Shown here: positions 5,426 through 34,848 of the stretch, piece by piece
Position numbering within the stretch: the stretch's first letter is position 1
Layout: every line of letters starts with the position of its first letter
DNA from: Methanolobus vulcani
GTDB taxonomy: Archaea > Halobacteriota > Methanosarcinia > Methanosarcinales > Methanosarcinaceae
Assembly: GCF_900100715.1 (NCBI RefSeq)
Contig: NZ_FNCA01000014.1
Location: 1-34,848 of the forward strand
Length of the DNA stretch: 34,848 nucleotides
Direction: 5' to 3'
Made by a program: the position numbers and the translations under genes
Notes under the pieces: model-generated
What the model was told of the DNA's origin: nothing
Databases searched by the model: none
What the model saw: only the letters and a program-made list of their open reading frames with translations

Positions 5426-5441
5426 GATTCATGCTTTTACA
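5426..5441 (-). promoter_or_regulatory. Upstream element, copy 3
   Basis: Minus strand TGTAAAAGCATGAATC, identical to copy 2 and about 95 bp upstream of the TATA box. The rest of the gap from 5442 to 5800 is A/T-rich and shows no gene. Confidence 0.5.
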
Positions 5442-5801: not shown

Positions 5802-5827
5802 GTGGAGTGTGTTTTGTCAGACTCCAC
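5802..5827 (-). terminator. Terminator of the mtbC operon
   Basis: On the minus strand GTGGAGT pairs with ACTCCAC across a 12-nt loop and is followed by TTTTAAC. It lies about 110 nt past the stop of the last operon gene (39-aa peptide copy B) and before the next promoter's upstream region. Confidence 0.5.
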
Positions 5828-5937
5828 GATAACTCTCGTCCTTAATCGCAAATCAAGTATATTTCCTGCGAATCTATTTTTGCATTTGAATTATCATAAA
5901 TAATAGAGGATGAGCCAACTTCATCCTCCAACTCCAT

Positions 5938-6057
5938 TCATATTTTTCTGGTAAAAGTCCGTCCTATGTAGAGTGCCAGCAGATCAAGTAACAAGACCAA
6001 AGCAAGATATACATAGTCTGCACCTGCAAATGCCCATACACCATCTATATGAAACAT
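5938..6057 (-). CDS. 39-aa single-TM peptide (copy B)
   Basis: Same 39-residue protein as at 4798-4917: a short polar N-terminus, one membrane span (YLALVLLLDLLALYI) and a basic tail (GRTFTRKI). The ATG follows the winged-helix stop in the arrangement TAATATG, so it is probably translated by coupling. It is the last gene of the mtbC-mtbB-permease operon, ahead of the terminator at 5802-5827. The peptide has no cysteine or catalytic motif. Its role is unknown, but preservation next to both permease genes suggests a transport or membrane-associated function. Confidence 0.65.
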   Translation of the reverse strand: MFHIDGVWAFAGADYVYLALVLLLDLLALYIGRTFTRKI

Positions 6058-6058
6058 A

Positions 6059-6346
6059 TTAAGCCCCCAGAAGTTCATTGACACGTGCCTGTCCAAAATC
6101 AGTCAGACTGTACCTGTACAAAACTTTTCCTTTTGCAAAACGTTTCCCATCATCAGCAGCAACATCTACAATACTGAATATGCCACCACATGAGAGCTCT
6201 GCCATCCAGAAACGAGCCATCCATTTCCAGTAATCACCGGATTTACCATATTCTGCAAGAAGCTTTGTGATTAGTTCATAATCCCATGCTTCCTTTTGTT
6301 CGGATAGAATCTGTACAAGTCTTGATTTCATAGGTAATTTTGTCAT
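6059..6346 (-). CDS. Small winged-helix-like protein of the dimethylamine operon (copy B)
   Basis: Intact 95-residue protein. The residue pattern (SRLVQILSEQKEAWDYELIT, then a hydrophobic helix, then a beta-hairpin ending VLYRYSLTDFGQARVNEL) looks like an archaeal winged helix, where a final YSLTDxG stretch is common; no named family is assigned. The start is the ATG at 6346, with AGAGGTGA 7 nt before it; an upstream in-frame TTG overlapping the permease stop would add 10 residues but lacks support. It lies 26 nt after the permease and 1 nt before the 39-aa peptide. A regulatory or permease-accessory role is inference. Confidence 0.65.
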   Translation of the reverse strand: MTKLPMKSRLVQILSEQKEAWDYELITKLLAEYGKSGDYWKWMARFWMAELSCGGIFSIVDVAADDGKRFAKGKVLYRYSLTDFGQARVNELLGA

Positions 6347-6372
6347 TTTGTTGTCACCTCTTAGAGTACATT

Positions 6373-7437
6373 TCAATCTGAACGGGTAGATTCCAGTAGT
6401 GAATCACCGCTGTCCCAATACATGACAAAAATCCCTGCAACTGCAATAACAGCACCAAGAATAACCCACCATGCAGTTGGAATTCCCATAAACACATACA
6501 GAGCAATTATTGCAAAGAGTACATAAAGTGTAGAAACACTCATTCCACGACCGACACCTATCAGTGGATAACTCTTCCACATGAATACATATGAGAAATT
6601 ACCTGAAAGAACTGCAAGTGACGTCCATATAAGGAACGAAGGGCTCGCAAGAGCAGCACTCAGAGCTGTATATACAGCACCAGGTCCTATAAGAAGAATA
6701 TAAACAGGCCAGATAATTACCAACCAGATTCCAAGTTCTGCTAAGAAACGTGTCTGTAGACCTGTGTCTGAGTCAGTCAGATCGATAACACGTCCTGCTA
6801 TAGCACCTTCAATCCCCCATCCTATAAATGATGCAATTGCGCCGAGATATCCCAGCCAAAGACCATCGGGAGCAGCAGGGTTTGTTATTTCTGCAATCGT
6901 TTGTGGTGGGTTTAATATAAAGACACCACCGACAACCATGATAGCAATGCCTGTCCATGCTCTTTTAGTAATATTCTCGCCATACCAGAACTTAGCTGCA
7001 AAAGCACCTATTACTGAACTGAGAAGTGCAGCTGATGCTGCAAATGCTGCTCCAATATATCCAATTGCCAGAGTTGTACCATAGATTGCAATCGGGCCAC
7101 CAAGGACTGCTGCAAAAGCATACCATTTAGATATCTTAAATGCAGAAGCTGTTCTTGGGAAATCTGCAAATTTTCCCGTTCCACCCAGATAAAAGATACT
7201 CAAAATAATAACTGTAAGGGCTATTTGGAATGTCAGAATTGTAGCCGTTGCCACCAGCATACCCATTGCACCTTCAGGGAAGGCAGACATGTCACCGAAA
7301 GGAGGAACAATCCACTGCATTGTGAATGCTACATATGCAATTCCCCATAATACTGAACAGAGGAATGCAATGATGAAACCCCATGTGATTCTATTTTTAT
7401 TTTCTTTTTTGATGATTGCTTCCAAATTTGAATCCAT
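6373..7437 (-). CDS. DMT-superfamily permease in the mtb operon (copy B, MtbP/MttP-like)
   Basis: A 354-residue integral membrane protein with about ten membrane spans arranged in two related halves (EamA/DMT type). It lies directly downstream of mtbCB on the same strand, so dimethylamine or another methylamine is the likely substrate; this is inference from operon position and from the similar MttP position in Methanosarcina. Conserved features shared with copy A are WIVPPFGD, IGYIGAAFAASAALL, WYGENIT, NPAAPDG, YPLIGVGRGMSVSTLY and the C-terminal MYWDSGDSLLES. The start has AGGTAGGTGA upstream. A large hairpin separates it from mtbB, suggesting differential expression. Confidence 0.8.
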   Translation of the reverse strand: MDSNLEAIIKKENKNRITWGFIIAFLCSVLWGIAYVAFTMQWIVPPFGDMSAFPEGAMGMLVATATILTFQIALTVIILSIFYLGGTGKFADFPRTASAFKISKWYAFAAVLGGPIAIYGTTLAIGYIGAAFAASAALLSSVIGAFAAKFWYGENITKRAWTGIAIMVVGGVFILNPPQTIAEITNPAAPDGLWLGYLGAIASFIGWGIEGAIAGRVIDLTDSDTGLQTRFLAELGIWLVIIWPVYILLIGPGAVYTALSAALASPSFLIWTSLAVLSGNFSYVFMWKSYPLIGVGRGMSVSTLYVLFAIIALYVFMGIPTAWWVILGAVIAVAGIFVMYWDSGDSLLESTRSD

Positions 7438-17131: not shown

Positions 17132-18666
17132 ACCTGTCAACTCATATCCCTATTATACTGATAGCTACTCCGATACTTGTGGCTGCACTTATGATACTTC
17201 TCAGGAAACAACCTGGTATACAGAAAGTGTTGAGCGTTGCTGTCTCATTTGCAATGCTGATCTTGAGTATAATCCTGCTTTCACAGGTATGGTCTGGCGG
17301 AATTCAGGCTTATGAGGTAGGAGAATGGGGAAAATACGGAATCATACTGGTGGCCGATCTCCTGAGTTCAGGAATGGTTGTGCTAACATCATTCGTATCA
17401 TTCCTTGCACTGATATATTCACTTGATTACATTGAGAAAAAGTCACTGAGTGCATCCTACTATCCGCTCTTCAGTCTGCTTGTAGCAGGACTTAACGGTT
17501 CATTCCTCACAGGTGATATCTTCAACCTTTTCGTATTCTTTGAGTTACTTCTTCTCTCATCATGCGGACTTGTGATTGCAAATGAGCAGGGCGGTGTCAC
17601 AAAGAGCTCCGATAAGATGGAAGCTACGTTCAAGTACCTCGTACTCAATATGTTAAGCTCGATTGTGATGCTTATTGCAGTATCTTCACTTTACGCAACA
17701 ACAGGAACACTGAACATGGCAGATATCTCAGTCAAGCTCAGTGCAATGAGTGCAGCAGGAACACTTCCATGGTATGTTTTCGCCATTGCTCTGATGTTCG
17801 TTGTGGTCTTTGGTAACAAAGCTGCAATTTTCCCGCTTCACTACTGGCTTCCGGATGTTCACCCCACAGCACCATCACCCATAAGCGCAATGCTTAGTGG
17901 TGTGCTTATCAAGGTAGGAGCATACGGAATGCTCAGGGTATTCTTCCTGATCTTCATTGACACTCTTGATATTTTCAAGCCTGTTATCATGTATCTTGCA
18001 CTGGCAACCATTGTTGTCGGAGCAATTTCAGCAGTAGCACAGACAGACGTAAAACGCCTGCTGGCCTATTCCAGTGTAAGCCAGATCGGTTATGTTTTCC
18101 TTGGAATCAGCTTTGGAAGTATCTACGGAATAACTGCAGCTCTTGTCTATCTTGTGAATCACGCAGTTGCAAAGTCGATGCTTTTCCTGACCTCAGGTGG
18201 GATAATTCACCATGCAGGGACCAGGGACATGCGAAAGATGGGAGGCATGGTTGATAGTGCACCGCTGATGTCACTTATGTTCCTTGTAGGTGCAATGTCA
18301 ATTGCAGGAATGCCACCGCTTGGAGGTTTCATTGCAAAGCTCAGTCTTTTTGATGCAGGTATTGGTGAACAGTATTATTTTGCAATAGGAATTGCACTCT
18401 TCTTTGCAATATTCACTCTCTTCTATATGTTCAGGGCAATGTTGCTCATGTTCTGGGGAGAGAAAAGGGATGTTGAAAAATATGGAGAATACTCCCATCA
18501 CGGAACCTCAGTTCTGATGGCAGTGCCAATCGTTGTGCTTGCACTGACAGTCGTTGCATTCGGTATTTATGCAGAGCCACTAATAACACTTGCAAATGCA
18601 ACAGCCCATCAGATACTTGATCCGCAACCATATATCGATGCTGTGTTGGTGAGGGTGGTAAGATGA
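17128..18666 (+). CDS. mrpD: Mrp antiporter subunit D
   Basis: A 512-residue antiporter-like subunit related to NuoM/NuoN with about 14 membrane spans. Characteristic stretches are LFVFFELLLLSSCGLV, FPLHYWLPDVHPTAPSPISA, MLSGVLIKVGAYGMLR (conserved Lys), AYSSVSQIGYVFLG and the broken-helix region GGFIAKLSLF. It overlaps mrpC by ATGA and mrpE by ATGA. Confidence 0.95.
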   Translation: MNLSTHIPIILIATPILVAALMILLRKQPGIQKVLSVAVSFAMLILSIILLSQVWSGGIQAYEVGEWGKYGIILVADLLSSGMVVLTSFVSFLALIYSLDYIEKKSLSASYYPLFSLLVAGLNGSFLTGDIFNLFVFFELLLLSSCGLVIANEQGGVTKSSDKMEATFKYLVLNMLSSIVMLIAVSSLYATTGTLNMADISVKLSAMSAAGTLPWYVFAIALMFVVVFGNKAAIFPLHYWLPDVHPTAPSPISAMLSGVLIKVGAYGMLRVFFLIFIDTLDIFKPVIMYLALATIVVGAISAVAQTDVKRLLAYSSVSQIGYVFLGISFGSIYGITAALVYLVNHAVAKSMLFLTSGGIIHHAGTRDMRKMGGMVDSAPLMSLMFLVGAMSIAGMPPLGGFIAKLSLFDAGIGEQYYFAIGIALFFAIFTLFYMFRAMLLMFWGEKRDVEKYGEYSHHGTSVLMAVPIVVLALTVVAFGIYAEPLITLANATAHQILDPQPYIDAVLVRVVR

Positions 18667-19157
18667 AAAGGTACATTGCCTATTCAGCTATACTGGCTCT
18701 GGTATGGTGTTTTGTCCATGGGACTGTAAACATTAACAATTTCATACTGGGACTTATTATCGCGCCATTTGTGATAAGGCCATTTAAGACATTGTTCAAT
18801 TTTGACAAGGAGTTCTCATTCAGCAATGCACTAAGCAAGATACCTGCTCAGATTAAGTATCTTTATGTGCTTATTGTGGAGATCATAAAGGCAAACATTA
18901 TGGTTGCAAAGATCGTCCTTCAGCCTAAGATCGATATCAAACCGGGAATCATTGCAGTTCCTATAGATACCAAAACAGATCTTGGAATCACTGCTATTGC
19001 AAATACTATTACCCTTACTCCGGGAACACTGACAATTGATATGTCCGATGACAGATGTCTCCTCTATGTGCATGCAATCGATGCAACTGACCCCGAGGGT
19101 GTGGCACAATCCATAAAGGATGATCTGGAAAAATATGTATTGGAGGCTTTCGAATGA
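18663..19157 (+). CDS. mrpE: Mrp antiporter subunit E
   Basis: A 164-residue protein with two or three N-terminal membrane spans followed by a soluble domain. The family pattern is visible in the LIVEIIKANIMVAKIVL stretch, TITLTPGTLTIDMSDDR and the C-terminal LYVHAID. MrpE is required for full complex function. ATGA overlaps on both sides. Confidence 0.93.
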   Translation: MKRYIAYSAILALVWCFVHGTVNINNFILGLIIAPFVIRPFKTLFNFDKEFSFSNALSKIPAQIKYLYVLIVEIIKANIMVAKIVLQPKIDIKPGIIAVPIDTKTDLGITAIANTITLTPGTLTIDMSDDRCLLYVHAIDATDPEGVAQSIKDDLEKYVLEAFE

Positions 19158-19420
19158 GTTTTATGTTACTCGAATATTCATTGATCTTCATGGTAATTTC
19201 TTTCATACCATGTATATACCGGGTCATCAAGGGCCCAACAATACCAGACAGGGTAGTGGCACTGGATGCCATGACCACAATAATAGTTGTAATGCTGGGT
19301 ATCTATTCATATGTCCAGGGATCCGTATTCTTCATGGATGTGGCACTTGTACTTGCTATTATCTCCTTTGTAGGAACTGTAACAGTTGCCAAGTATCTTG
19401 ATGATGGGGTGGTATTTTGA
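19154..19420 (+). CDS. mrpF: Mrp antiporter subunit F
   Basis: An 88-residue protein with three membrane spans. The pattern RVIKGPTIPDRVVALDAMTT and the C-terminal ALVLAIISFVGTVTVAKYL are typical of MrpF. ATGA overlap with mrpE, TTGA with mrpG. Confidence 0.93.
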   Translation: MSFMLLEYSLIFMVISFIPCIYRVIKGPTIPDRVVALDAMTTIIVVMLGIYSYVQGSVFFMDVALVLAIISFVGTVTVAKYLDDGVVF

Positions 19421-22352: not shown

Positions 22353-23888
22353 ATGTGGAGTATAAACAATCTTTTTAGGTATTCAGCTCTGGCTCTTTTG
22401 GTTTTTGTGGCAGCTACTGTAAATGCATCGGCTGCAGCGTCAGTTTTCATTTCTCCTGAATCGAGTACGGTTTCACCGGGTGAAACTTTTACTGTTGATG
22501 TTAATGTAAATTCAGGTATCGATGATCTTAGAGCATTAAGCGTTAAGATAGATTATGACCCTGCGGTACTGGAAGTATTAAGTATAACAGAGGAGGATCT
22601 TATTGTAGATGGTTCACTTATTGAACCGGAAAGTGGTGATGATGGGGACGGAACTATAATCTATGGATTTGCAACACTAACGGATGAAAATTCTTATGCT
22701 CCCGGAAGTGGAACATTCATATCTATCGAATTTCAGGTGAAAGATACTGTAGAAGATGATGTTTATCATATCAATTTTGAGAACGTCCGGCTTAAGGATA
22801 AGAACAATGATGAAATTCAAGGAACAGCCACAGGAAGTTCCGTAATTGTCGGTAATGTTGCCGCTGGTTCAGTGTCCTCTCCGGAAATCATAGATTTCGG
22901 AAGTCCTGCAGAAAGTGGATCAACTGGAAGTTCCTCTGGTTCTATAACTACGATGGGAAGCAGTATTGACACGGGACAGCAATTGTCGTATGAATATATA
23001 TTCGGGTCCCATCCAGATGATTATCGTAAGCTGGTATCAAAAGGAATCGTACCCAGTGAAGAAGAATGGGATCAGAATCTCCCAATACTTGAGAGTAATA
23101 TTAAAAATGAACTGGAAGACAGGGGATATTTATTCTCAAGAGGAAAGATCATATCTGTGGGTGCTAACTCCGGCGGTTATCTCGTAATCGTATTTTATGA
23201 GCCATTAATGGTTGAAGGAGAGGAGGTTGATGCTACCTACGAAGTAATCCGCCAAAAAGCGATGGAAATGAACGTTACCAATGTTCCGGTGGAGTTTGGT
23301 GAAGGCACTGTTCCAGAGGCAAGCGCAAGATTGCAGAACTTGCTTCAAAAAGCTCAGGCAATGAATGCTATGAAACTTGAGAGCCTTATGGACAATGAAA
23401 GTTCCCTTTACGATCCGGAAATAATAGCTGTTGCCGGTGAGGTTCCTCTGATAAATACTGAAAAAGAGTGCTGGCAATGGTACTATCAGGATTCATATGC
23501 CATTTCTCTTAATATGAGTGATCCCATAGCTGAATATTTGCAAAATGGTATCCTACTGAATACAGGTCTCTCAACTTACGGTTATTTCGAAGTTAAGATC
23601 AATCAGGAAGCAGATATAAATAGAAAGTCACTGATCACTGATGTTTATGGGATTATAAATACGGCAGCTATGAAAGTAGGAGTTAACAATGTTCCTGTAG
23701 TTTTTAAGGTCGTTAATCCGGATGTTGCGGAAGATGTTCTAGCCTCAACCAATGATGAAGTTCCAGAGGAAAATCCGACCTCTGAAACTGAAGCACAACA
23801 GTCTCCCGGTTTTGGTTTCCTTATAAGTCTTTTATCTCTGTCTTTAGTGTATTGTATGGCAGTCTTATCCGGGAAACGAAAACCCTGA
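22353..23888 (+). CDS. Cohesin-domain surface protein with PGF-CTERM-like anchor
   Basis: A 511-residue secreted protein. Residues 1-28 are a signal peptide. Residues about 29-168 are a cohesin-like domain: VFISPESSTVSPGETFTVDV, DPAVLEVLSIT, GDDGDGTIIYGFATL and FISIEFQVK are the repeating features seen again in the 28184 protein. After a Ser/Gly linker, two related alpha/beta segments follow (about 210-330 and 370-460), each ending in a GVNNVPVVF / NVTNVPVEF motif. The C-terminus, PGFGFLISLLSLSLVYCM then GKRKP, fits the PGF-CTERM signal processed by archaeosortase, which attaches proteins to archaeol lipid. It would display one cohesin on the cell surface. Cohesin assignment is from sequence pattern only. 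Confidence 0.8.
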   Translation: MWSINNLFRYSALALLVFVAATVNASAAASVFISPESSTVSPGETFTVDVNVNSGIDDLRALSVKIDYDPAVLEVLSITEEDLIVDGSLIEPESGDDGDGTIIYGFATLTDENSYAPGSGTFISIEFQVKDTVEDDVYHINFENVRLKDKNNDEIQGTATGSSVIVGNVAAGSVSSPEIIDFGSPAESGSTGSSSGSITTMGSSIDTGQQLSYEYIFGSHPDDYRKLVSKGIVPSEEEWDQNLPILESNIKNELEDRGYLFSRGKIISVGANSGGYLVIVFYEPLMVEGEEVDATYEVIRQKAMEMNVTNVPVEFGEGTVPEASARLQNLLQKAQAMNAMKLESLMDNESSLYDPEIIAVAGEVPLINTEKECWQWYYQDSYAISLNMSDPIAEYLQNGILLNTGLSTYGYFEVKINQEADINRKSLITDVYGIINTAAMKVGVNNVPVVFKVVNPDVAEDVLASTNDEVPEENPTSETEAQQSPGFGFLISLLSLSLVYCMAVLSGKRKP

Positions 23889-23912
23889 ATTCTATTGTAG
23901 AAGGAATAATTT

Positions 23913-24323
23913 ATGAACGTGATAAGAATGATACCTTTTCTGAAAAGGTTTTTTCTTTATCTTACTCTTTTATTCATTTTATGGGTTCCAATAGGTGGAA
24001 GATATTTTGCTGCTTCAGTAGTTATTGTAGATTTTAAGAATTTCTTTTTGTTCTATCTACCTTTGAATTTCATACCTTTTATAGCTCTTGTACTTGCTAC
24101 AAAGCTTGAAAAGAGAAAAACCGTGAAGATTCTGATGATAGGTCTTGTATTGACTATTTTCTTCAATTTATTTATTGTATTTTTGCAGATACTTTTCATT
24201 TCTTACCAGGAACAATTACTCTACATATATGCTATTGGCAGGATAGCATTCCCATTTCTTTTATGGCTTGTTTTTACTTATGATATTGTCCTTGCTCCAT
24301 TGCAGGAAACATCCAATGAGTAA
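23913..24323 (+). CDS. Four-TM membrane protein of unknown function
   Basis: A 136-residue integral membrane protein with four hydrophobic segments (FFLYLTLLFILWVPIGG; FFLFYLPLNFIPFIALVLA; ILMIGLVLTIFFNLFIVFLQ; AFPFLLWLVFTYDIVL). It begins 24 nt after the cohesin-anchor gene with GAAGGAA before the ATG, so it is probably co-transcribed. It lacks the conserved Cys of exosortase/archaeosortase enzymes, so it is not a processing peptidase by this evidence. A membrane partner for surface-protein export is speculation. Confidence 0.6.
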   Translation: MNVIRMIPFLKRFFLYLTLLFILWVPIGGRYFAASVVIVDFKNFFLFYLPLNFIPFIALVLATKLEKRKTVKILMIGLVLTIFFNLFIVFLQILFISYQEQLLYIYAIGRIAFPFLLWLVFTYDIVLAPLQETSNE

Positions 24324-24481
24324 GCATTTTTTAAATCTCTATCTGAAAATTTATATTTAGTTGTTAGACGTGGCCACTTAATCTTCTTCACTCTTTAGTA
24401 TCAATGTTCAGTATCATTGTTATGTATCATTATTCAGGAACAGTATTTGTGAACAGTCTTCTGAATATCTATTTCTTATCG

Positions 24482-24633
24482 GTTTATAAAATCTGACCTC
24501 ATATCAATATTCGGGGTTGTCGGTGGGATTATCCAGGGCAACTTCACTTGGATATCATTGAACCGTTGGAGACGGAGTCATGTTCTGTGATATCGAAGAG
24601 TCGGTATGACTTAAGAAAGGAGGATAGTTAATA
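24482..24633 (+). promoter_or_regulatory. Promoter and structured leader of the dockerin protein
   Basis: GGTTTATAAAA (24481-24491) is a good TATA box; transcription would begin near 24512, giving a leader of about 120 nt. The leader contains an inverted repeat GATATCA/TGATATC (about 24551-24557 and 24579-24585) and ends with AAAGGAGGAT close to the ATG, an unusually strong ribosome binding site for an abundant protein. The gap 24324-24480 shows nothing else. Confidence 0.5.
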
Positions 24634-27600
24634 ATGAAAGTGAAGTTCCAGCACAGGTTTTTAGTTGTTGCTATTGCACTCGTTACTATATTTTCAATAG
24701 CAATGACAGCAAGTGCTCAAGATGACGCAAATTCATTGCGGATCTACGGTGAAAATGGATATGGTGCCGCATTTCCATACACTGATCCCGAAGCACCATT
24801 CGATCCGATGAATGAACAAGCACCAATGAAAGATTTCGTAACATTCAATCCAGCCATGCTGGAAGATAGTATTGTTGTGAACAATATTGATTCCAAGCAG
24901 AAGGTTTTTGCCAGACAATGGTTCGTACCTGAATACGTAGAACCAACTGGTATGGTATGGCTTGATGATTTCAGGTGTGTCGTACAAAACGGCAACGATA
25001 CATCAACAGCGCTCATAACTGAGGATGAAAGTGAAAGATTAATAGACCCCTCTGTTTTGAGTTGTGAATGGATTCCTAATCACAATGAATATACCTGGGA
25101 AGACGTAGTGACAGATTATACTTACATGTTTGTTGACAAGCACTACCAGCCCAGAGAGGCAACTGCAAAGAGCCCAACAAGATCCTATTGGACAACATTC
25201 TGGTTCCCTATTGCAGACAATGACGATGAACAGATCGGTCTTGATGGTTATGATATGAATTATGACGGTGAAGACGATATGGTCGTTCTTAAGAAGGTTG
25301 GGGACTTTAACTTTGATGGTTACAAGGATGTGCAGATCAGCTCTGAGATGATGGCAGTCAATGTCGGTGACAAGGTCCAGTTCCTTGACCACATAGTAGA
25401 AGTAGAAGGTGTCTACTATGATGGCGAGGGTGAGATTGACAGAGTTGCTGTTAAGATATTCTACACAGGTAACGATGAACCTGAACAAATAGGAGAACTC
25501 TGGTCAGTCAATGTAGGTGAAAAGAATTACCTTAGTTCAGGCCGTCACACAGTATCAATGAACAGACCACAGTTCTATGAACCATGGTACCTTGAGATCG
25601 ATGCTACAAGTGTCGGATCAGAAAAGGTTCTGATGACCGTAGGACGTCAGCTCTATACCAGAGAGACTTTCTTCGTAGATGGTGCAGAATATGATGTTGC
25701 CATGATCTATGGTTCAGCCTATGATTCTGTAAAATACATTACAATCAGAAACCCGGTTCCAGAACACAAGAATGTTGAAATAAACGACCTTTCAATCGTC
25801 AAGGAAATGGTTGACAACGAAGAATCTCTTCCATTGCTCCCACCATACAACAAAGTGCACACAATGGTAGACGACATTAACATTCCACATACAGAAACCT
25901 GCTGTGAATACACAGGATATGTAGGTTCAACTCTTAACTCAGCTGCATCTGATGGTGAATGGTATGAGGATGACTGCATACTTGCAAACTACGATACAAT
26001 AGAAGAACGTAAAATATACAACGTCGATCCATTGAATATCTACTTCATCGACAAGACAAATGAGCCAAGGTTCCACACGGACCTGCTTGAAATACTCGAT
26101 GAGGGTGCAGAACTCAGTAATATAGAAGATACTGAAGCATGGAAGTGGCTGCACATCCGTACAATGCCTGAATTCTATAAGGACTTTGTCTATCCAGAGC
26201 TTCCTGATATAGATGATGGCACAGGTGACTTCCTGTTCACAAGTTCCTTTGTAGCAGAGAATTCCATGAAGTGCGAAGACTTTGCTGAATATATCTGTGA
26301 TCCTAACAACTTTGTATGGCCACAGAGAATTATGTTCACTTATGATCAGGAGACAGGAGCAGAAGATATCTATGTTAACGAAATAGACACTGAAACCAAC
26401 GGACTCAGAGTCTATGGTGAAGACAATATGGATGCTGCATTCCCATATACTGATCCTGAGGCACCATTTGATCCATTGAATGCTGAAGCACCTCAGAAGG
26501 ACTTTGTAACGCTCAATCCAGCCAAGATAAAGGCAGGAATTGTAGTTGACAACAAGGACTCACACGAGAAGGTATTCTTCAGACAGTGGTTCGTACCAGA
26601 ATATGATGAGCCAACAGGTCGTGTATGGCTTGATAAGCCTAACAAGTACATCTGGGAAGATGTCGTGAATGAATACACCTACATGTTCATTGACAAGCAC
26701 TATCAGCCAACAGCTGGTACAGCAACACCGCAAGGCAACCCAAGTAACCCATGGGATGTCACAATGCAGGAAGATTCTTTCTGGACTTACTTCTGGTTCC
26801 CTGCAGCTGACAATGATGCAAGTCAGGTAGGTCTTGACAGCTTTGACATCAACTATGACGGTAAGGATGATAAGACATACCTAATGGCAGCCGCAGACTT
26901 CAACAGTGATGGCAGAAAGGATATTGCACTTGGTTCAGAGCTATTCGCACTTGCAGTAGGTGACAAGATACAGTTCCTTGACCACATTGTTGAGATAGAA
27001 GGAATCTACTACGATGGCGAGGGTGAGATTGACAGAGTTGCAGTAAAGGTATTCTACAACGGTAACAATGAACAGAACCCAACCTATCCAGGTCCAGAAC
27101 AGATCGGTGGACTATATTCAGTCAATGTCGAACAGGGCGTACTCAGCGCAGGACGTCACACTGTAAGCATGAACCTGCCGGACTTCTATGAACCATGGGC
27201 AATGCAGATTCTGGGTACCAGCTCAGACAGTAGCAAGGTACTGATCCGTGTAGGACGTCTGCTCCACACAGGAGAATCATTCTTCGTTGATGGTGCAGAA
27301 TATGCAGTTCCAATGATATATGGTCCTGAAGAGAACAGTGTCAAGTACATTACAATCAGGAACCCAATACCAGAACACCAGGATGTCAAGCTGAACGATC
27401 TGTCAGTTACCAAGGAAATGGTCGATGACAATGAGATCATGCCAGTGCTCCCACCATTCAACAGGGAACACATAATGATCGATGATATCGATGTTCCACA
27501 TTCAGTACCTGATGAGAGTATGACCTGCTACTATGGACAGTGGTATGACTCTAGTGCAGGAAATGAGGATCTGCTGTGGTATCACGACATGTACATCAAC

Positions 27601-28161
27601 AGTGTCTATGACACAATCTCAAAGCGCATGTTCACAGTACCTGCAACTGAGATCTACTTCACAGGCAAGGACTATGAGGACAGATTCCACACCAACCTGC
27701 TTGAACTCCTCAGAGAGTGCCAGGCAGATGAAACCTGGAAGTGGCTACACATCTACACAATGCCAGACTTCTACAAGGAGTTTGTCTATCCGGATGTACC
27801 AAATGCAGGCGGAAGTGGTGACTATCTCCTGACCAGTTCATTCACAGCACCTAACACAGTGCTCTGTGAGAGTGTCGAGATTCCACCAGTCTATCCAAGG
27901 ATGATGTTCACATACGATCCAACAGATGGAACAGGTCTGTATATGAACGGTGGTGCTCCAGCTGTAGAACCACCAGTTGATGAGATTAAGGGTGACTACG
28001 ACGGTAATGAGATTGTCAACTTCGACGACTTTGTTGAATTTGCAGCATGCTACAACTCAGTAATGGGCGACAGCAACTACAATGCAATCTTCGACTTTGA
28101 TGACGATGGTGACGTAGACTTCGATGACTTCGTAGAGTTCGCAGGAGTGTATCAGTCTTAA
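24634..28161 (+). CDS. Giant secreted surface protein: two large repeats plus C-terminal dockerin
   Basis: A 1175-residue secreted protein. Residues 1-28 are a signal peptide (VVAIALVTIFSIAMTASA). Residues about 33-588 and 589-1100 are two copies of one large unknown domain; shared stretches are AAFPYTDPEAPFDP, RQWFVPEY, EYTYMFVDKHYQP, KVQFLDHIVEVEG, YYDGEGEIDRVAVK, FYEPW, FFVDGAEY and KYITIRNP. Each copy has a DxNxDGxxD calcium-type loop. Residues 1118-1175 are a type I dockerin: two EF-hand-like loops, DYDGNEIVNFDDFVEFA and DFDDDGDVDFDDFVEFA, separated by a short linker. Codon use looks like that of a highly expressed gene. The dockerin should bind a cohesin, and a three-cohesin protein is encoded 22 nt downstream. 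The catalytic or structural role of the repeats is unknown. Confidence 0.85.
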   Translation: MKVKFQHRFLVVAIALVTIFSIAMTASAQDDANSLRIYGENGYGAAFPYTDPEAPFDPMNEQAPMKDFVTFNPAMLEDSIVVNNIDSKQKVFARQWFVPEYVEPTGMVWLDDFRCVVQNGNDTSTALITEDESERLIDPSVLSCEWIPNHNEYTWEDVVTDYTYMFVDKHYQPREATAKSPTRSYWTTFWFPIADNDDEQIGLDGYDMNYDGEDDMVVLKKVGDFNFDGYKDVQISSEMMAVNVGDKVQFLDHIVEVEGVYYDGEGEIDRVAVKIFYTGNDEPEQIGELWSVNVGEKNYLSSGRHTVSMNRPQFYEPWYLEIDATSVGSEKVLMTVGRQLYTRETFFVDGAEYDVAMIYGSAYDSVKYITIRNPVPEHKNVEINDLSIVKEMVDNEESLPLLPPYNKVHTMVDDINIPHTETCCEYTGYVGSTLNSAASDGEWYEDDCILANYDTIEERKIYNVDPLNIYFIDKTNEPRFHTDLLEILDEGAELSNIEDTEAWKWLHIRTMPEFYKDFVYPELPDIDDGTGDFLFTSSFVAENSMKCEDFAEYICDPNNFVWPQRIMFTYDQETGAEDIYVNEIDTETNGLRVYGEDNMDAAFPYTDPEAPFDPLNAEAPQKDFVTLNPAKIKAGIVVDNKDSHEKVFFRQWFVPEYDEPTGRVWLDKPNKYIWEDVVNEYTYMFIDKHYQPTAGTATPQGNPSNPWDVTMQEDSFWTYFWFPAADNDASQVGLDSFDINYDGKDDKTYLMAAADFNSDGRKDIALGSELFALAVGDKIQFLDHIVEIEGIYYDGEGEIDRVAVKVFYNGNNEQNPTYPGPEQIGGLYSVNVEQGVLSAGRHTVSMNLPDFYEPWAMQILGTSSDSSKVLIRVGRLLHTGESFFVDGAEYAVPMIYGPEENSVKYITIRNPIPEHQDVKLNDLSVTKEMVDDNEIMPVLPPFNREHIMIDDIDVPHSVPDESMTCYYGQWYDSSAGNEDLLWYHDMYINSVYDTISKRMFTVPATEIYFTGKDYEDRFHTNLLELLRECQADETWKWLHIYTMPDFYKEFVYPDVPNAGGSGDYLLTSSFTAPNTVLCESVEIPPVYPRMMFTYDPTDGTGLYMNGGAPAVEPPVDEIKGDYDGNEIVNFDDFVEFAACYNSVMGDSNYNAIFDFDDDGDVDFDDFVEFAGVYQS

Positions 28162-28183
28162 GCCTGATGCGTGAGGTGAAATC

Positions 28184-30430
28184 ATGACAAAAGTAACATG
28201 GAAGGGAATGGCAGGATCTGCTGCCATCCTTTTAATATTTTGTGCATGTTTCATGGTAGGCGTAGGACTTGCAGCGGCTGCACCTTCAGTGTCAGTAAAT
28301 CCGCAAATGAATGAGTACGATGCAGGTGATACGTTCCAGGTTACTGTATATGTTGATTCAGATGCAGAGAACCTGCGTGCTGTGAACTTGCAGCTGGACT
28401 ATGATCCGGCCGTACTTATGGTGAATGACATAACCGATGAGAACCTGCTTGGTGCAGGAGCACTTGTAGCGCCTGGAAGCGGTGATGACGGAGCAGGTAC
28501 CATAACCTATGGTATAGCTTCAATCGCCGGCACCTATGCACCAGAAGCCGGTACAATGCTTACCATTGAGTTCGAAGTGAAGGCAGGCGCAGCAAATGGC
28601 ACCTATAACCTTGACCTGAACAATGTGGTTCTCAAGGATGAGACCAATACGGCTATTGCCGGAGTTGTAGTAACAGACGGAACATTAAACGTTGGAGAGG
28701 TTATTGTACCACCAACATCTGGTAATCCGGAAGTTATGATCTCTCCAGCAGCAAGTGGTCCGGTCAGCCCGGGTGACACATTCCAGATAGAGGTTGAAGT
28801 TGATTCAGCCGATGAAAATCTCCGTGCTGTGAACCTGCAGTTGAACTATGACTCTGCAGTGCTTATGGTGAACAGTATTACCAATGAGAACCTGATTTCA
28901 GGTGCACTCGTTGCGCCTGGAAGTGGTGATGATGGTGCAGGTACTATAACGTATGGTCTTGCAGCCACAGGTGGAACCTATACACCAGAAGCCGGTACAA
29001 TGCTTACCATTGAGTTCGAAGTAAAAGCTGGTGCTGTGGATGGAGTCTACAACCTTGATCTGAGCAATGTAGTTCTCAAGGATGAAACAAGCGCAGCTAT
29101 TGCAGGAGTTGATGTCACAGATGGTACCGTACAGGTGACCGATGGTGCAGTTCCTGAAGTGCCGGAGGTAATGATCTCTCCTGAATCAAGTGGACCGGTT
29201 GATATCGGAGACATATTCCAGATAGAGGTAATGGTCGATTCCGATGACCAGAATCTCCGTGCTGTAAGCCTGCAGCTGGACTATGATCCTGCAATACTGA
29301 TGGTTAACAGTATTACCAATGAGGATCTGCTTGGAGCAAGTTCACTCGTTGCACCTGGAAGTGGTGATGATGGTGCAGGTACTATAACATATGGTCTTGC
29401 AGCCACAGGTGGAACCTATACACCAGAAGCCGGTACAATGCTTACCATTGAGTTCGAAGTAAAAGCTGGTGCCGTGGATGGTATCTACGATCTTGACCTG
29501 AACAATGTAGTCCTCAAGGACGAAACAAGCACAGCTATCGCCGGAGTTATGGTAACAGATGGTACAGTTGAAGTCTCTACAGTACCTAATGTAGTACCAG
29601 AACCAGTGATCATCTCTCCAGAAGATGGTGATGTTGTTTCCAAGACACAGATTGTTGAAGTCATCGACAATTCCAGCCAGGATGATATAAAGTCCGCAAC
29701 ATTTGAAATATTCGCAGATATCAACGGTAACTGTGAAGCTGACGATGTCGGACAGACCTGGACAGTGTTCGCAATGGACAACGACGGATCAGATGGCTGG
29801 AAAGGTGTACTGGACACTACCACTGTACCGGACGGTAAGTACCTGATCAAGGCAACTCTTGATGACGGAAGAGACACAGCATTCTATATTGTCTGTGTAG
29901 AAGTATACAACCCAGAAGGAATAATGCTTCTCCCAGGCTGGAACCTGATCTCATTCCCGGAGACACTGGATAACGCATCCGTAGAGTATGTACTTCAGGA
30001 CTTCGATGATACACAGGTTGATGCTGTATTCTACGACAATGGTTCTGCAATGGTTGCACAAACCACTTTTGAGCCATTGAAGGCATATTGGGTACACAAC
30101 AACATGAGTGAAGAGGTCATAATAGACGAAGTATATCTTACAGCAAAGGTGCCATCAACGCCTCCATCAATAAGGCTCATACCCGGATGGAATGCTATCG
30201 GTCATACATCTAAGGTAGAGCTGTCTGCAGAGGTAAGTCTTGCAAGCATCGATGATTGCTATGTTAAGATCATGGGACCATGGGTAACATCCTCACAGGA
30301 GTTTGCATATGTAGGCTACAATGGGGTCGAAGGTGTCATCAACAGTAATCAGGTAGGTACTGATGTCTTTACCATGAATATGTACGAAGGATACTATGTA
30401 TTTGTGGATAAAGAGTGTGTATTAGCCTGA
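28184..30430 (+). CDS. Three-cohesin scaffoldin-like secreted protein
   Basis: A 748-residue secreted protein with a signal peptide (about 1-33), then three cohesin-like domains at about 34-180, 182-325 and 326-468, each with ISPxxSGPV..GDxFQIEV, LQLDYDPAVLMVNxIT, GSGDDGAGTITYG and GTMLTIEFEVKAG. An Ig-like domain (about 470-580, ISPEDGDVVSKTQ..) follows, and then two copies of a short domain beginning LLPGWNLISFP (about 583) and LIPGWNAIGH (about 667). There is no membrane segment or PGF-CTERM signal at the C-terminus, so the protein must be held by another surface component. AGGTGA precedes the ATG, 22 nt after the dockerin gene: an operon. It resembles a small cellulosome scaffoldin without a carbohydrate-binding module. 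Confidence 0.85.
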   Translation: MTKVTWKGMAGSAAILLIFCACFMVGVGLAAAAPSVSVNPQMNEYDAGDTFQVTVYVDSDAENLRAVNLQLDYDPAVLMVNDITDENLLGAGALVAPGSGDDGAGTITYGIASIAGTYAPEAGTMLTIEFEVKAGAANGTYNLDLNNVVLKDETNTAIAGVVVTDGTLNVGEVIVPPTSGNPEVMISPAASGPVSPGDTFQIEVEVDSADENLRAVNLQLNYDSAVLMVNSITNENLISGALVAPGSGDDGAGTITYGLAATGGTYTPEAGTMLTIEFEVKAGAVDGVYNLDLSNVVLKDETSAAIAGVDVTDGTVQVTDGAVPEVPEVMISPESSGPVDIGDIFQIEVMVDSDDQNLRAVSLQLDYDPAILMVNSITNEDLLGASSLVAPGSGDDGAGTITYGLAATGGTYTPEAGTMLTIEFEVKAGAVDGIYDLDLNNVVLKDETSTAIAGVMVTDGTVEVSTVPNVVPEPVIISPEDGDVVSKTQIVEVIDNSSQDDIKSATFEIFADINGNCEADDVGQTWTVFAMDNDGSDGWKGVLDTTTVPDGKYLIKATLDDGRDTAFYIVCVEVYNPEGIMLLPGWNLISFPETLDNASVEYVLQDFDDTQVDAVFYDNGSAMVAQTTFEPLKAYWVHNNMSEEVIIDEVYLTAKVPSTPPSIRLIPGWNAIGHTSKVELSAEVSLASIDDCYVKIMGPWVTSSQEFAYVGYNGVEGVINSNQVGTDVFTMNMYEGYYVFVDKECVLA
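28916..29481 (+). repeat. Near-identical DNA repeat in cohesins 2 and 3
   Basis: About 128 bp at 28916-29043 recur almost unchanged at 29354-29481, an offset of 438 nt or 146 codons, which is the cohesin period. The flanking parts of the same domains are more diverged, so this looks like recent duplication or gene conversion. Confidence 0.7.
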
Positions 30431-30511
30431 GGTGTTTAAAAGAAACATGAAACGAAGTTTTTGCAGTGGGACATTCTCACTGCATTTTTGATTTATAATA
30501 AGGTGGGACGT

Positions 30512-31162
30512 ATGATAAGTGGAAAAAGACAAGGTGCATTATTAACGATATTTGTAATCTTACTGACATTCATAGTTATACCTGCTGCAGCTGTTGCACC
30601 TCCTATAATACTGGAAGGAAATCTACAGATAGACGGACAACCTGCAGCTGTAGGAACTGAAGTCACGTTAGTTGTAGACGGAAACGTTGTCGGTGGAACA
30701 ACTGTGACTACTGAAGGTCTTATAGGTGACGAGCGTAGTAACAGACTGGGTTTATCTTCAGACTATGATGTAGTTATGATCTATGTGAACGGGGTGGAAG
30801 CTCAGACATTGGATCTTAAAAATTATCAAGAAGAAGTAGTATCTCTGGACATTAGTGCAGCCAGCTCTGTACAGGAAACACCTGTAGAATATGAAAAATC
30901 AACTTCTGGTGGTGGAGGAGGTTTTGGCACTTCCACTGAAAATGCCGAAGTAGAGGCCAGTAGTGTATCAGAATCTGCATCATCCGAAACAGAGGAAACA
31001 ATACTCGAGAGTACAACTGAAGAACCTGCTGCAGAAGTAGCAGATGAACAAGTTTCAGAACCAGGAACTTCTTCCAGTAGTAGTAGTGGTACTATTGCAA
31101 TAGTAGTTCTTGCTCTTGTAGGAATTGTTATTGTTTCTTATGGATACAGGTCCAGAAAGTAA
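30512..31162 (+). CDS. Secreted, C-terminally anchored protein
   Basis: A 216-residue protein. Residues 1-27 are a signal peptide, about 28-115 a small beta-rich domain (LEGNLQIDGQPAAVGTEVTL, VVMIYVNG) whose pattern recalls bacterial/archaeal Ig-like surface domains, then a poly-Gly patch (STSGGGGGFG), a Ser/Glu-rich spacer, and a terminal TM (TIAIVVLALVGIVIVSYG) with a basic tail. The ATG at 30512 has AAGGTGGG upstream; an in-frame TTG at 30461 would put 17 polar residues before the signal and is unlikely. The last surface gene of the cohesin-dockerin group, 81 nt after the scaffoldin. It has no PGF motif. Family not recognised. Confidence 0.65.
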   Translation: MISGKRQGALLTIFVILLTFIVIPAAAVAPPIILEGNLQIDGQPAAVGTEVTLVVDGNVVGGTTVTTEGLIGDERSNRLGLSSDYDVVMIYVNGVEAQTLDLKNYQEEVVSLDISAASSVQETPVEYEKSTSGGGGGFGTSTENAEVEASSVSESASSETEETILESTTEEPAAEVADEQVSEPGTSSSSSSGTIAIVVLALVGIVIVSYGYRSRK

Positions 31163-31240: not shown

Positions 31241-31492
31241 ATGACTGTAACTAATGGGTGTGGTTATATTAGAAGAAGCAGAACTGCCATTAGCGTGGAA
31301 ATATTAAAAGCTGCATTGGAGGGTGCAAAAAAAACACATATAGTTTACAGTGCAAACCTGAACTTTGATATGGTTAACAGGTATCTTGAAATGTTAGAAG
31401 AAAAAGGTATGATTGAACGTAAAGGAAACCTGTATATAACAACTGAAAAAGGAAAAGAGTTTCAGGAAATTGCAAAGGAATTGGGTCTTTAA
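31241..31492 (+). CDS. Archaeal winged-helix regulator (HTH_45-like)
   Basis: An 83-residue protein with the pattern RSRTAISVEILKAALEGAKKTHIVYSANLNFDMVNRYLEMLEEKGMI in pieces, followed by a wing (ERKGNLYITTEKGKEF), typical of small archaeal winged-helix proteins of the HTH_45 type. It probably binds DNA as a dimer. Position at the end of the cohesin-dockerin cluster suggests, but does not prove, that it regulates those genes. The start ATG at 31241 follows a GGGAATGA stretch that could act as a weak ribosome binding site. Confidence 0.7.
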   Translation: MTVTNGCGYIRRSRTAISVEILKAALEGAKKTHIVYSANLNFDMVNRYLEMLEEKGMIERKGNLYITTEKGKEFQEIAKELGL

Positions 31493-31795: not shown

Positions 31796-32527
31796 ATGTT
31801 GACCCGTGAACTAATATATGGATTGATGCCTTATTCAATTCATCAAAAAATTGTGCGCTGGAAATGCAAATTTAAAAAACAGGATGATCTTTTGGTAAAT
31901 AATCACCTGGCACTTTATCCTCATTCTTTTGACCTAAATAAAGTTGTGAAAGAAGAGCTGGATAAATGTGTAGCCTTTTTACCCTACTGTGCCAAGCCTA
32001 TGGGCGAACATGAATGCCCGGCATCTGATAAGATCAACAAGAGAAAGAACCAGAAATGTATCAAGGTGTCCGGTGGAAAATGTAACGTACCATGCTCTCT
32101 TGGTGAGATGGTTGATGTTCTTGTAAAACATGGTTTTAAAAAGGAGCAGATCTTCATAATTGATCGTGATTCAAATCTATTCCCCTGGTTAAAACAAAAA
32201 AGAGAAGAAGGATATGAGTATTTCATGCCGGGAACAGGATGTAAATATGGTGTATCCTATGCAATAGATTATGTGGGAAAAAAACTTGGTTATAAAGGAT
32301 GTATTGCCTTTGTAGATGATTTTTGCCCAGGAGACAAAGATAATGGTGTATGTAAATGCATGAACGATTATCTGGGAATGGAAGGTGTCGATAAAGGAAA
32401 AATGACCAAGATACATAAAGAAACAATTATTCTCATGGATTGCATTCTCTCAGGCGAGTATCATAATATGAATGAAGAAGTAACTCATAAATCCCCTCAA
32501 ACAAATGAGTCCCCCTCAAGCATTTGA
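31796..32527 (+). CDS. Cysteine-rich DUF116-like protein 1
   Basis: A 243-residue soluble protein with many cysteines (C58, C65, C74, C88, C96, C100, C149, C169, C177, C186, C188, C216). The order FLPYCxKPxG then ECPA, then CIKVSGGKCNVPCSLGEM and a Rossmann-like IFIIDRDSNLFPW resembles the DUF116 family, whose function is not established; metal or Fe-S binding is likely from the Cys pattern. GGAGGA lies 5 nt before the ATG. It is a tandem paralogue of 32754-33428, with nine of the cysteines kept in both. The Ser/Pro-rich tail (HKSPQTNESPSSI) is lacking in the second copy. Confidence 0.65.
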   Translation: MLTRELIYGLMPYSIHQKIVRWKCKFKKQDDLLVNNHLALYPHSFDLNKVVKEELDKCVAFLPYCAKPMGEHECPASDKINKRKNQKCIKVSGGKCNVPCSLGEMVDVLVKHGFKKEQIFIIDRDSNLFPWLKQKREEGYEYFMPGTGCKYGVSYAIDYVGKKLGYKGCIAFVDDFCPGDKDNGVCKCMNDYLGMEGVDKGKMTKIHKETIILMDCILSGEYHNMNEEVTHKSPQTNESPSSI

Positions 32528-32753: not shown

Positions 32754-33428
32754 ATGAAAATATCAGTTCTAGAGAGAATACACTCTTTTCTTCCATATTC
32801 GGTAAACAAAAAACTGATTGAAAAGAGACTTGGTTCTATATGTGCTAATAACAGTCTGATGACTTATAATGTAGCTATCTCCTCACCTTACATTAATTTA
32901 AAGGATATTGTTGAGAATGAACTGGATAAGTGCATAGCTTTTCTCCCCTACTGTTCCAAGCCTTTGGGTAATTCGACATGTCCTCTTTCGGTAAATTGTT
33001 CATCAAGAAAAACCCGGATATGCTTGAAGTTAGAAGGTAAAAGTTGCAATGTTCCATGTTCTCTGGGAGAGATGATCGATGTTCTTAAAAAGTATGATTT
33101 TACACAAGACCGTATATTCATAATAGACAGTGATTCCAATCTTTTCCCTTGGCTTGAAAGAAAAAAAAATGAAGGATATAAATATTTTCTTCCAGGTATA
33201 GGCTGTCATTACGGAGTTGCTTATGCACTAAAATATGTTCAGAAGAAAATTGGTCTTGAAGGCTGTATTATATTCCTGCAGGATCAGGATCCTATGGATA
33301 AAGATCATGGTGTATGTAAAAGTTTTTTTGATTATAACAATATGGAAAAAACTGACAAGGGAAAAAGAACAATGATAAGTAACGAGTCCATAAAAATCAT
33401 TGAAAATATACTTTCAGGAAAAACATAA
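32754..33428 (+). CDS. Cysteine-rich DUF116-like protein 2
   Basis: A 224-residue paralogue of the preceding gene, keeping C60, C67, C76, C90, C98, C102, C151, C171 and C188, the motif FLPYCSKPLG and the segment KSCNVPCSLGEMIDVLKKY. It is separated by a 226-bp A/T-rich gap, so it may have its own promoter. An inverted repeat GAGTATG/CATACTC (32711-32717 and 32733-32739) sits immediately before the weak ribosome binding site (AGGGG) and could hide it. Function unknown. Confidence 0.65.
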   Translation: MKISVLERIHSFLPYSVNKKLIEKRLGSICANNSLMTYNVAISSPYINLKDIVENELDKCIAFLPYCSKPLGNSTCPLSVNCSSRKTRICLKLEGKSCNVPCSLGEMIDVLKKYDFTQDRIFIIDSDSNLFPWLERKKNEGYKYFLPGIGCHYGVAYALKYVQKKIGLEGCIIFLQDQDPMDKDHGVCKSFFDYNNMEKTDKGKRTMISNESIKIIENILSGKT

Positions 33429-33614: not shown

Positions 33615-34848
33615 ATGATAAAATGTAATATAGTTTTATTAATAGCGTTGGTGTTAATTACGATATCAGGTACATCTGCAGCAGCTTTTAATGTAGATGG
33701 AGTCAATAGTACAGATGAATGGGATCAAAATTGGAATTTCGGTCAGATAAACGGTACTGGCTATGATCCCAGCGGTCCTTTTGGAGATAAAATGGTTGTA
33801 TACCAGGATGGGAATTGGTACGACAACGATCCTGCAGCCGATGCAGGTAGTAATTATAATGAAAATCTAAGCGTTGAAGGTTCTTATCCAAGTGGGTATG
33901 ATATAAAAGGTATTTACGCTCATTATGATATCCTGAATGATACTCTGTATGGTATGGCAACTGTCTACGGTCTGCCAGGTGATCTTGATGGTGATGGAAA
34001 CATAGTAGGTCTCGCGGAAAATGGTGATATACTCGGAAATGTCACCGGCAAACCTATAACAGGTATTGGTCCCGGAGAGCAGTGGAGTATTGTCCTTTTG
34101 CAAAATGAAAGAATGATAATGATCACCATTACGAATAATGACTGGAATGCCAATACAATCGGTATTTCAGGATTTGATATAAATGATGTTCACGCTGCAA
34201 ACAGTAATGCCGGAGGACCTGACAACTGTACAAACTGTGTTTATGAAATATCAATAAGTAATCTTTCGGATTATTTCGATATGCTTCCCGGTGAACAATT
34301 CAGTGTCGCCTCAAGTGCCGGTGGAAATCTGGATATTGTCGGAGAAGATATAGCTGCGGTTTTCTTTGAAATTCCAAATCCTTCAATAGATATTGAGAAG
34401 TCAACTAATGGTGAGGATGCCGATAGTGCTCCGGGTCCGGGTATACCTAAGGGTAATGAAGTGCTGTGGACATATATAGTGAACAACACAGGTAATGTGC
34501 CACTTGTAAATGTTACTGTTATTGATGATCAACTAGGTCCGGTTACTAACATAATATACAAAGGTGATGGTGATGATGTACTGGCTATTGGTGAGAACTG
34601 GATATATGTTGCAAACGGCACTGCAGAATGTGGTCAGTATGAGAACAATGCTACCGCAGTTGGTTTCTTTGATGTAATAGGTGTATTTGATACTGATCCA
34701 AGTCACTACTTCGGAGAATGTCCTGACATTGACATTGAGAAGGCTACTAACGGTGAAGATGCTGATACTGCACCTGGACCTGGAGTAATGGAAGGAGATG
34801 CTGTTACCTGGACTTATGTTGTTACAAACACAGGTAATGTTAATCTTA
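33615..34848 (+). CDS. Large secreted surface protein with DUF11/DUF7507-type repeats (3' cut by window edge)
   Basis: The reading frame from ATG 33615 stays open to the window end (411 codons). A signal peptide (KCNIVLLIALVLITISGTSAAA) precedes an N-terminal domain with aromatic, Asp- and Gly-rich sequence (DQNWNFGQINGTGYDPSGPF; DGDGNIVGLAENG) that may bind calcium. From about residue 255, repeats begin: DIEKSTNGEDADSAPGPG..WTYIVNNTGNVPL and a second starting at 34723, DIEKATNGEDADTAPGPG..WTYVVTNTGNV. These are the DUF11/DUF7507 repeats of archaeal adhesin-like proteins, spaced about 115 residues. The ATG at 33611 is in another frame and stops after six codons; GGGGGAAATGC lies before 33615. 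More repeats and an anchor are expected beyond the window. Confidence 0.85.
   Translation, partial: MIKCNIVLLIALVLITISGTSAAAFNVDGVNSTDEWDQNWNFGQINGTGYDPSGPFGDKMVVYQDGNWYDNDPAADAGSNYNENLSVEGSYPSGYDIKGIYAHYDILNDTLYGMATVYGLPGDLDGDGNIVGLAENGDILGNVTGKPITGIGPGEQWSIVLLQNERMIMITITNNDWNANTIGISGFDINDVHAANSNAGGPDNCTNCVYEISISNLSDYFDMLPGEQFSVASSAGGNLDIVGEDIAAVFFEIPNPSIDIEKSTNGEDADSAPGPGIPKGNEVLWTYIVNNTGNVPLVNVTVIDDQLGPVTNIIYKGDGDDVLAIGENWIYVANGTAECGQYENNATAVGFFDVIGVFDTDPSHYFGECPDIDIEKATNGEDADTAPGPGVMEGDAVTWTYVVTNTGNVNL

Follow-up and report, generated by a model that had tools for sequence, protein, structure and literature searches.

A giant dockerin-ended protein and a three-cohesin scaffoldin as the proposed plug and sockets of a surface assembly in Methanolobus

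The dockerins of cellulosomes owe their specificity to two residues per repeat, at positions 10-11, and repeats that are symmetric permit two binding orientations (PMC8063739). Cohesins and dockerins have also been catalogued for years outside cellulosomes, with no role assigned to them (PMC5244752, PMC9012536). For the anaerobic methanotrophic archaea (ANME), exterior scaffoldin-like proteins are described that combine a dockerin with as many as five cohesins, with ABC binding proteins as cargo (Chadwick et al. 2022, PMC9012536); earlier work cited there held other archaea to be without scaffoldins. PMC9012536 and PMC11452385 likewise cite non-cellulosomal cohesins in Archaeoglobus fulgidus and Methanococcus maripaludis, the A. 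fulgidus modules as binding. Here, we analyse a stretch of 34,848 nucleotides from the methanogen Methanolobus vulcani (NZ_FNCA01000014.1), called the window below, which is the entire contig C4 of its own assembly. It encodes a giant protein that ends in a dockerin and, 22 nt after it, a scaffoldin with three cohesins.

The reading we consider likely is that of a plug-and-socket surface assembly. Under it, the giant protein and other cargo of the same code would dock on the scaffoldin, and the code itself appears to have been exchanged between genomes as a block of DNA. The modules, their synteny, the symmetry of the dockerin, the sharing of its code across the genome, the co-variation of plug with sockets, and the exchange of the block are results of computation.

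A sequence-only reading of the window had placed together a one-cohesin protein, the giant dockerin-ended protein, and the three-cohesin scaffoldin. All of its open reading frames (ORFs) were confirmed in position, and the profiles of Pfam and of the families themselves agree with it. Both PF00963 (cohesin) and PF00404 (dockerin) were scored against the Pfam gathering cut-off. The four segments proposed to be cohesins passed that check, one copy standing above the cut-off in the one-cohesin protein (E 8e-16) and three in the scaffoldin (E 7e-44). Against the Protein Data Bank (PDB), the cohesin profile finds 4ums (3e-10) and 1g1k (2e-8). The AlphaFold model of the scaffoldin, trustworthy in the cohesins only and not in the C-terminal 280 residues, leads Foldseek to a cohesin dyad (3l8q, 2e-14) and to 1g1k (TMt 0.77).

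The dockerin requires a longer argument. Residues 1119-1175 of the giant protein form a twin Ca-loop module, in which EF-hand-like Ca loops are duplicated with matched recognition residues. A profile made from 14 sequences of the family ranks solved cellulosomal dockerins first (2y3n at 7e-12, 4wi0, 4u3s, 2b59), with calmodulin far below, and orthologues of the giant protein exceed the PF00404 cut-off (G044 7e-8, G071 1e-6, G078 1e-10, G006 1e-6). For these two reasons, the dockerin label is justified for the C-terminal module, as a call from sequence. A protein of G123 with the same dockerin type also matches PF00404 (8e-6). In the window's own genome, a PF00404 scan has a sole match, an ORF of 1140 aa on contig C8; at L064:9898-13308, on that contig, lies an Ig/PKD protein of 1136 aa that combines one cohesin with a PF00404 dockerin whose code is not that of the window.

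What is here called the code is the pair of residues at positions 10-11. The window has F-D; other dockerins have F-I, F-F, F-Y, I-L, L-D, F-T, I-I, L-K, F-G or S-A. M. bombayensis reads F-D like the window, and the SBSPR1A genome reads F-I. In 31 of 40 dockerins, the pair is identical between the two halves of the same molecule. Over 17 orthologues of the giant protein, the halves match at the recognition positions with a frequency of 0.82, against 0.37 when halves are shuffled; at control loop positions of the same orthologues, the corresponding values are 0.26 and 0.22.

The code is also shared by proteins encoded elsewhere in the genome. Two more proteins of the window's genome end in a dockerin of the same type, a NosD-like beta-helix protein (C8) and a CAP-domain protein (C18), and both dockerins read F-D. 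Among unrelated cargo proteins, agreement at positions 10-11 is 0.76 within a genome and 0.36 between genomes, a difference reached by 0 of 3000 label permutations, whereas the control positions (linker and other loop positions of the cargo dockerins) agree about equally in both comparisons (0.331 and 0.322). When only one genome with the F-D code is retained, the within-genome sharing has P 0.006 and the control P 0.37. In G127, a genome with the F-I code, three unrelated proteins share their code while their silent codons differ. Recent gene conversion among dockerins is unlikely as the source of such sharing, since silent sites differ.

The sockets, in turn, vary with the plug. Distances between dockerin recognition residues follow distances between scaffoldin cohesins closely (Mantel r 0.94, p 0.0003, 14 genomes). 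The partial correlation is 0.94 given Sua5, 0.91 given the body of the giant protein, and 0.93 given IF2 (12 genomes); with these two housekeeping genes, Sua5 and IF2, the recognition residues do not correlate (r about -0.03). The cohesin of the anchored one-cohesin protein follows the dockerin code weakly (r 0.53, p 0.026, n 10).

This last correlation, together with the presence of that cohesin within the same cassette, could suggest that the dockerin in truth binds the anchored protein, which would serve as a membrane tether and leave the scaffoldin some other role. Such an arrangement is improbable. The anchor is missing at four orthologous loci that retain dockerin and scaffoldin, and the scaffoldin correlation is far stronger. 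Moreover, in G132 the cohesin of the anchor retains the other type, although the dockerin and the scaffoldin cohesins have changed.

Comparisons along the locus show where such changes begin and end. Between G134 and G135, identity is 96-100% just upstream of the dockerin, falls to 44-46% within it, runs at 28-50% from the N-terminus of the scaffoldin through its two cohesins, and returns to 82-92% directly after the last cohesin. Outside the block, the giant proteins of these two genomes are more than 80% identical. Comparison of G132 and G137 with the window gives identities of about 71-85% in the giant body, 56% in the dockerin, 40-44% in the cohesins, and 70-71% in the GWN end of the scaffoldin. 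The borders of the block fall on the domain borders of the dockerin and of the last cohesin.

Phylogenetic trees of the parts disagree in the same way. The block tree unites G132, G134, and G137 (support 100). In the tree of the giant body, G134 clusters with G135/G136/G117, and G132/G137 fall within the group of the window. Each data set rejects the topology of the other in the approximately unbiased (AU) test (2e-8 and 9e-54), with p values that are rough because they come from 5000 replicates by resampling of estimated log-likelihoods (RELL). Downstream of the block, the tree of the scaffoldin C-terminus, otherwise weakly resolved, again has G134 with G135/G136/G117. Fast divergence alone would not yield this incongruent grouping; the dockerin and the cohesins therefore behave, in these alignments and trees, as one exchange block, changed in three genomes while the flanks are conserved. 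No earlier account of such a block exchange was found in the literature searched, and one may exist elsewhere.

One might, of course, attribute both the co-variation and the block to linkage and fast drift at a surface locus whose products do not interact, the dockerin being a Ca2+-stabilised C-terminal cap. The two genes are neighbours, exchange is common among surface genes, and the control positions of the dockerin also correlate with the scaffoldin cohesins, to a lesser degree (0.59 after correction for the giant body). We regard this account as very improbable. What unlinked cargo have in common is exactly the recognition residues, with the control residues not shared, the symmetry between halves is concentrated at the recognition positions, and the borders of the block match those of the dockerin and last-cohesin domains. 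That this dockerin pairs with these cohesins, which the sequence-only reading had put forward as inference, has strong indirect support from symmetry, sharing by unlinked cargo, co-variation, and block exchange.

The arrangement is not peculiar to the window. The genes for the giant protein and the scaffoldin are adjacent in all 21 of the Methanosarcinales loci where both can be read, across several families of the order, with the identity of the giant protein falling to ~23% over these syntenic loci; the synteny, as a property of the sequences, exceeds chance. Among 186 genomes of the order, 26 have a match to the giant protein or its dockerin; among 238 of the class, 24 have a match to the unit of the giant protein. 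Where genomes are named, the relatives of the giant protein come from Methanolobus or Methanosarcinaceae, and a methylotrophic methanogen fits the methylamine methyltransferase and Mrp genes of the window. Within the genus, the dockerin type occurs in 16 of 27 genomes, and the giant protein in none of the 11 that lack it.

Scaffoldin orthologues mostly carry two or three cohesins; in the scaffoldin-like neighbour in G006, no cohesin was detected with a profile of our own making. A dockerin was looked for in the scaffoldin and its orthologues and was not found. Two of the scaffoldins (L040:11567-12658, L043:11579-13930) have a fasciclin adhesion domain between cohesins 1 and 2 (PF02469 1e-32, 2e-34). 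Where the contig is long enough, the gene after the scaffoldin mostly encodes a protein of the tm233 type (Table 1). The loci of G117, G134, G135, and G136 lack both the anchor gene and the accompanying gene for the 136-aa membrane protein; the two are, by this distribution, a clade-specific addition and not the core of the cassette. The anchor had been described as carrying a PGF-CTERM, as substrates of archaeosortase A do. Its tail of PGF, transmembrane segment, and basic residues is kept in relatives; the NCBIfam PGF-CTERM models give no match.

Ten members of the genus without the cassette (L132 to L141) have sua5 followed by the gene for a winged helix-turn-helix (wHTH) protein and/or the next conserved gene block. 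On this gene order, the cassette is an island that is either present or absent at one fixed site of the chromosome, beside sua5. The wHTH gene (31241-31492) was rejected as a member of the cassette, because it adjoins sua5 in most of the cassette-less genomes read as well. In G111, the place of the giant protein in the scaffoldin cassette is taken by an unrelated dockerin cargo of 733 aa (L062:6559-8760 and 4695-6542). A second, different cohesin/dockerin system is seen at L179:637-6501, L180, L181, L182, and L183 (G132, G133, G128; also L185, G116). Its large proteins end in a cohesin and a dockerin-like tail (MDMNGDGSVTSIDARQIL), and their neighbour is a membrane-anchored single cohesin of ~180 aa.

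Table 1. Positions in the window of the features of the cassette
Feature	Position	Strand	Description or basis
One-cohesin anchor protein	22353..23888	+	Signal peptide, uncharacterised middle domain, C-terminal PGF-transmembrane-basic tail of membrane/S-layer anchor type; PF00963 E 8e-16
Anchor cohesin, residues 30-165	22440..22847	+	PF00963
136-aa protein	23913..24323	+	Four predicted transmembrane segments; accompanies anchor gene
Giant protein, 1175 aa	24634..28161	+	Signal peptide, two ~550-aa units, C-terminal dockerin
Giant-protein unit 1	24736..26403	+	No recognised fold
Giant-protein unit 2	26404..27963	+	Repeat of unit 1
Symmetric type I-like dockerin, residues 1119-1175	27988..28158	+	Profile matches, PF00404 in orthologues, symmetry
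Dockerin repeat 1, positions 10-11 (F-D), specificity	28021..28026	+	Role of positions from PMC8063739
Dockerin repeat 2, positions 10-11 (F-D), as in repeat 1	28120..28125	+	Role of positions from PMC8063739
Scaffoldin	28184..30430	+	Signal peptide, three cohesins, Ig-like stretch between, C-terminal domain with two GWN motifs
Scaffoldin cohesin 1	28286..28693	+	PF00963
Scaffoldin cohesin 2	28730..29137	+	PF00963
Scaffoldin cohesin 3	29165..29575	+	PF00963
Proposed plug-and-socket exchange block (dockerin end and cohesin part of next gene)	27988..29575	+	Identity profiles, trees
Scaffoldin GWN C-terminal domain	29936..30427	+	Within own genome, seen here only
Hairpin then T-run, between scaffoldin and tm233	30462..30484	+	Ten-pair stem
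tm233	30512..31162	+	Signal peptide, small beta domain, low-complexity stalk, C-terminal transmembrane segment

The two units of the giant protein are 60% identical, a true duplication, and the earlier description of the cargo as a duplicated domain without recognised family stands. In Pfam, the 550-aa unit has nothing above cut-off, with weak FG-GAP-like matches in 8 of 24 members; the best E in a sequence search of the PDB is 0.87. Its AlphaFold model is poor (mean pLDDT 38.5), and Foldseek with that model gives no row below 0.001 in the PDB. A row in BFVD at 9.7e-4 has a TM score of 0.07 and is meaningless. For the central beta region, the top structural row, from a low-confidence model, is MA0829 (Z 7.8, root-mean-square deviation 4.8, 118 aligned). 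The unit has no Pfam match to DUF1608 (PF07752), and hhalign gives a probability below 1%; the genome has separate, conventional S-layer proteins with PF07752.

The nature of the cargo bears on a further possibility, that of a true enzyme complex, cellulosome-like or amylosome-like, whose scaffoldin would gather hydrolases for extracellular polymers. Some cargo would suit it: the same-code NosD/beta-helix protein has weak pectinesterase similarity, and there are the CAP protein, a protease-like protein in G127 (weak Peptidase_C3 match), and an enzyme-like protein of 470 aa in G128. We nevertheless find such a complex unlikely. The sequence-only reading saw no glycoside hydrolase or carbohydrate-binding module (CBM), and none is present in the locus or in the proteins of the genus with the same dockerin type. 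Further, the universal cargo is the giant repeat protein, which is not enzyme-like, and cargo are few, with 1-4 per genome.

Several results weigh against the plug-and-socket assembly that we favour. The PF00404 check that had been proposed for the C-terminus of the giant protein gives no match in the window protein, even at E up to 1, so that there the dockerin label comes from orthologues and the family profile. The giant repeat could not be placed in a known family, as Pfam, PDB sequences, Foldseek, and BFVD yield no meaningful match. Part of the co-variation between dockerin and scaffoldin is linkage, the genes being neighbours. The test of unlinked cargo comprises 18 proteins from 10 genomes, and because related genomes are not independent, permutation P values, including the 0 of 3000, are optimistic. 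Lastly, some cargo is off-code, namely the CAP protein of G119 and the second CAP paralogues of G116 and G133.

Only in G116 and G133, which also have the second, off-code CAP paralogue, was another multi-cohesin GWN scaffoldin found. It is encoded at L177:1756-5127 in G116 and L178:183-4424 in G133, with three cohesins of another type. This coincidence is suggestive, with n = 2.

With these reservations, the working of a plug-and-socket assembly may be sketched. From the computed results, we infer binding, its Ca2+ dependence, a surface location, and a function. The giant protein would be secreted, and its symmetric C-terminal dockerin would plug into the cohesins of the neighbouring scaffoldin, probably in a Ca2+-dependent way and in either of two orientations. 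The same sockets would also receive other secreted proteins with the same code, such as the NosD-like beta-helix protein and the CAP-domain protein; the anchored one-cohesin protein might take same-code cargo as well, less certainly. Having three sockets, each scaffoldin could hold up to three cargo molecules, and would itself be kept at the surface by its GWN C-terminal domain, by tm233, or by both.

The whole would then be an adhesive or matrix-like coat. This role is the weakest step of the sketch, drawn as it is from the lack of recognised polysaccharide enzymes, from the fasciclin domain in two scaffoldins, and from the setting. The proportions of the coat may be set in part by the hairpin between the scaffoldin and tm233. 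In 15 of the 15 loci examined, a hairpin stands at this place and is followed by a T-rich tail, with stem sequences that differ; Rfam has no match for the element, which is probably a terminator or attenuator. Partial termination there would produce more scaffold and cargo than membrane protein tm233. The hairpin also bears on the start of tm233: the TTG start of a 233-aa ORF (30461) falls on this conserved element, so the ATG at 30512 is the likely start.

Other genes of the window were noted in passing. Two related EamA-type transporters (3639-4742 and 6373-7437) lie close to a dimethylamine methyltransferase and its corrinoid protein. Beyond the cassette, a pair of Cys-rich paralogues (31796-32527 and 32754-33428) has no recognised family, and is followed by a surface protein with DUF11/DUF7507 repeats (33615-34847). 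At L043, the next gene (18613-19371) encodes archaeosortase B (TIGR04144 3e-55); this lies past the end of the window.

In the proposed assembly, the code differs among species and appears to have been exchanged between lineages as a DNA block that spans a gene boundary. It is tempting, and on balance doubtful, to go further and regard the block as a private surface code at the level of species or strain, the adjacency of plug and sockets making docking specificity replaceable in a single recombination event. If this were true, only a cell's own secreted proteins would assemble on its own surface in mixed aggregates. Parts known from cellulosomes would then serve to tell self from non-self or to safeguard a public good.

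The question of cohesin-dockerin assembly in archaea is now approachable with a few recombinant modules. The genus has cultured members (Methanolobus bombayensis, M. psychrotolerans), its docking code can be read and its cargo predicted, and the exchanges that nature has made supply controls of their own. For the protein engineer, a block in which plug and socket lie side by side is a natural source of orthogonal pairs for protein assembly.

How, then, does this locus stand to the systems already described? It resembles a cellulosome scaffold in its working and is not a cellulosome, since a search for glycoside hydrolases, for carbohydrate-binding modules, and for a dockerin on the scaffoldin found none of them. 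The layout of anchor, cargo, and scaffold that the sequence-only reading took from the cellulosome is not supported. Lacking a dockerin, the scaffoldin cannot plug into the anchor cohesin; the anchor is absent at four loci, and its cohesin co-varies weakly. With the clostridial cellulosome (type I, CipA; symmetric dockerins as in DocCel48 of Bacteroides cellulosolvens, PMC8063739), the locus has in common a multi-cohesin scaffoldin, a C-terminal dockerin on the cargo, specificity at positions 10-11, a symmetry that allows a dual binding mode, and one code across the cargo of a genome. It differs in having no glycoside hydrolases, no CBM, and no scaffoldin dockerin, hence no cohesin-dockerin link to an anchor. 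It differs further in its universal cargo, a giant repeat protein, in its two to three sockets, and in a plug and sockets that are adjacent and appear to be exchanged as one block.

The likeness to the S-layer protein MA0829 of Methanosarcina (DUF1608, PF07752) amounts to that one structural row from a weak model, with no profile support. The dockerin/cohesin proteins of ANME (PMC9012536, PMC5244752) share the archaeal order, a non-cellulolytic setting, exterior multi-cohesin proteins, and a proposed role in adhesion. The pair of giant protein and scaffoldin, the code, and the block exchange do not appear in the excerpts of PMC9012536, and the present scaffoldin comes from methanogens. Archaeoglobus fulgidus and Methanococcus maripaludis, on the accounts cited above, also have archaeal cohesins outside cellulosomes; these are single cohesins, and those accounts describe no gene pair of scaffoldin and cargo like the present one. 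What the present locus would add to all of these is a cognate pair in a methanogen genus, a docking code that runs through the genome, and the exchange of plug and socket as a block.

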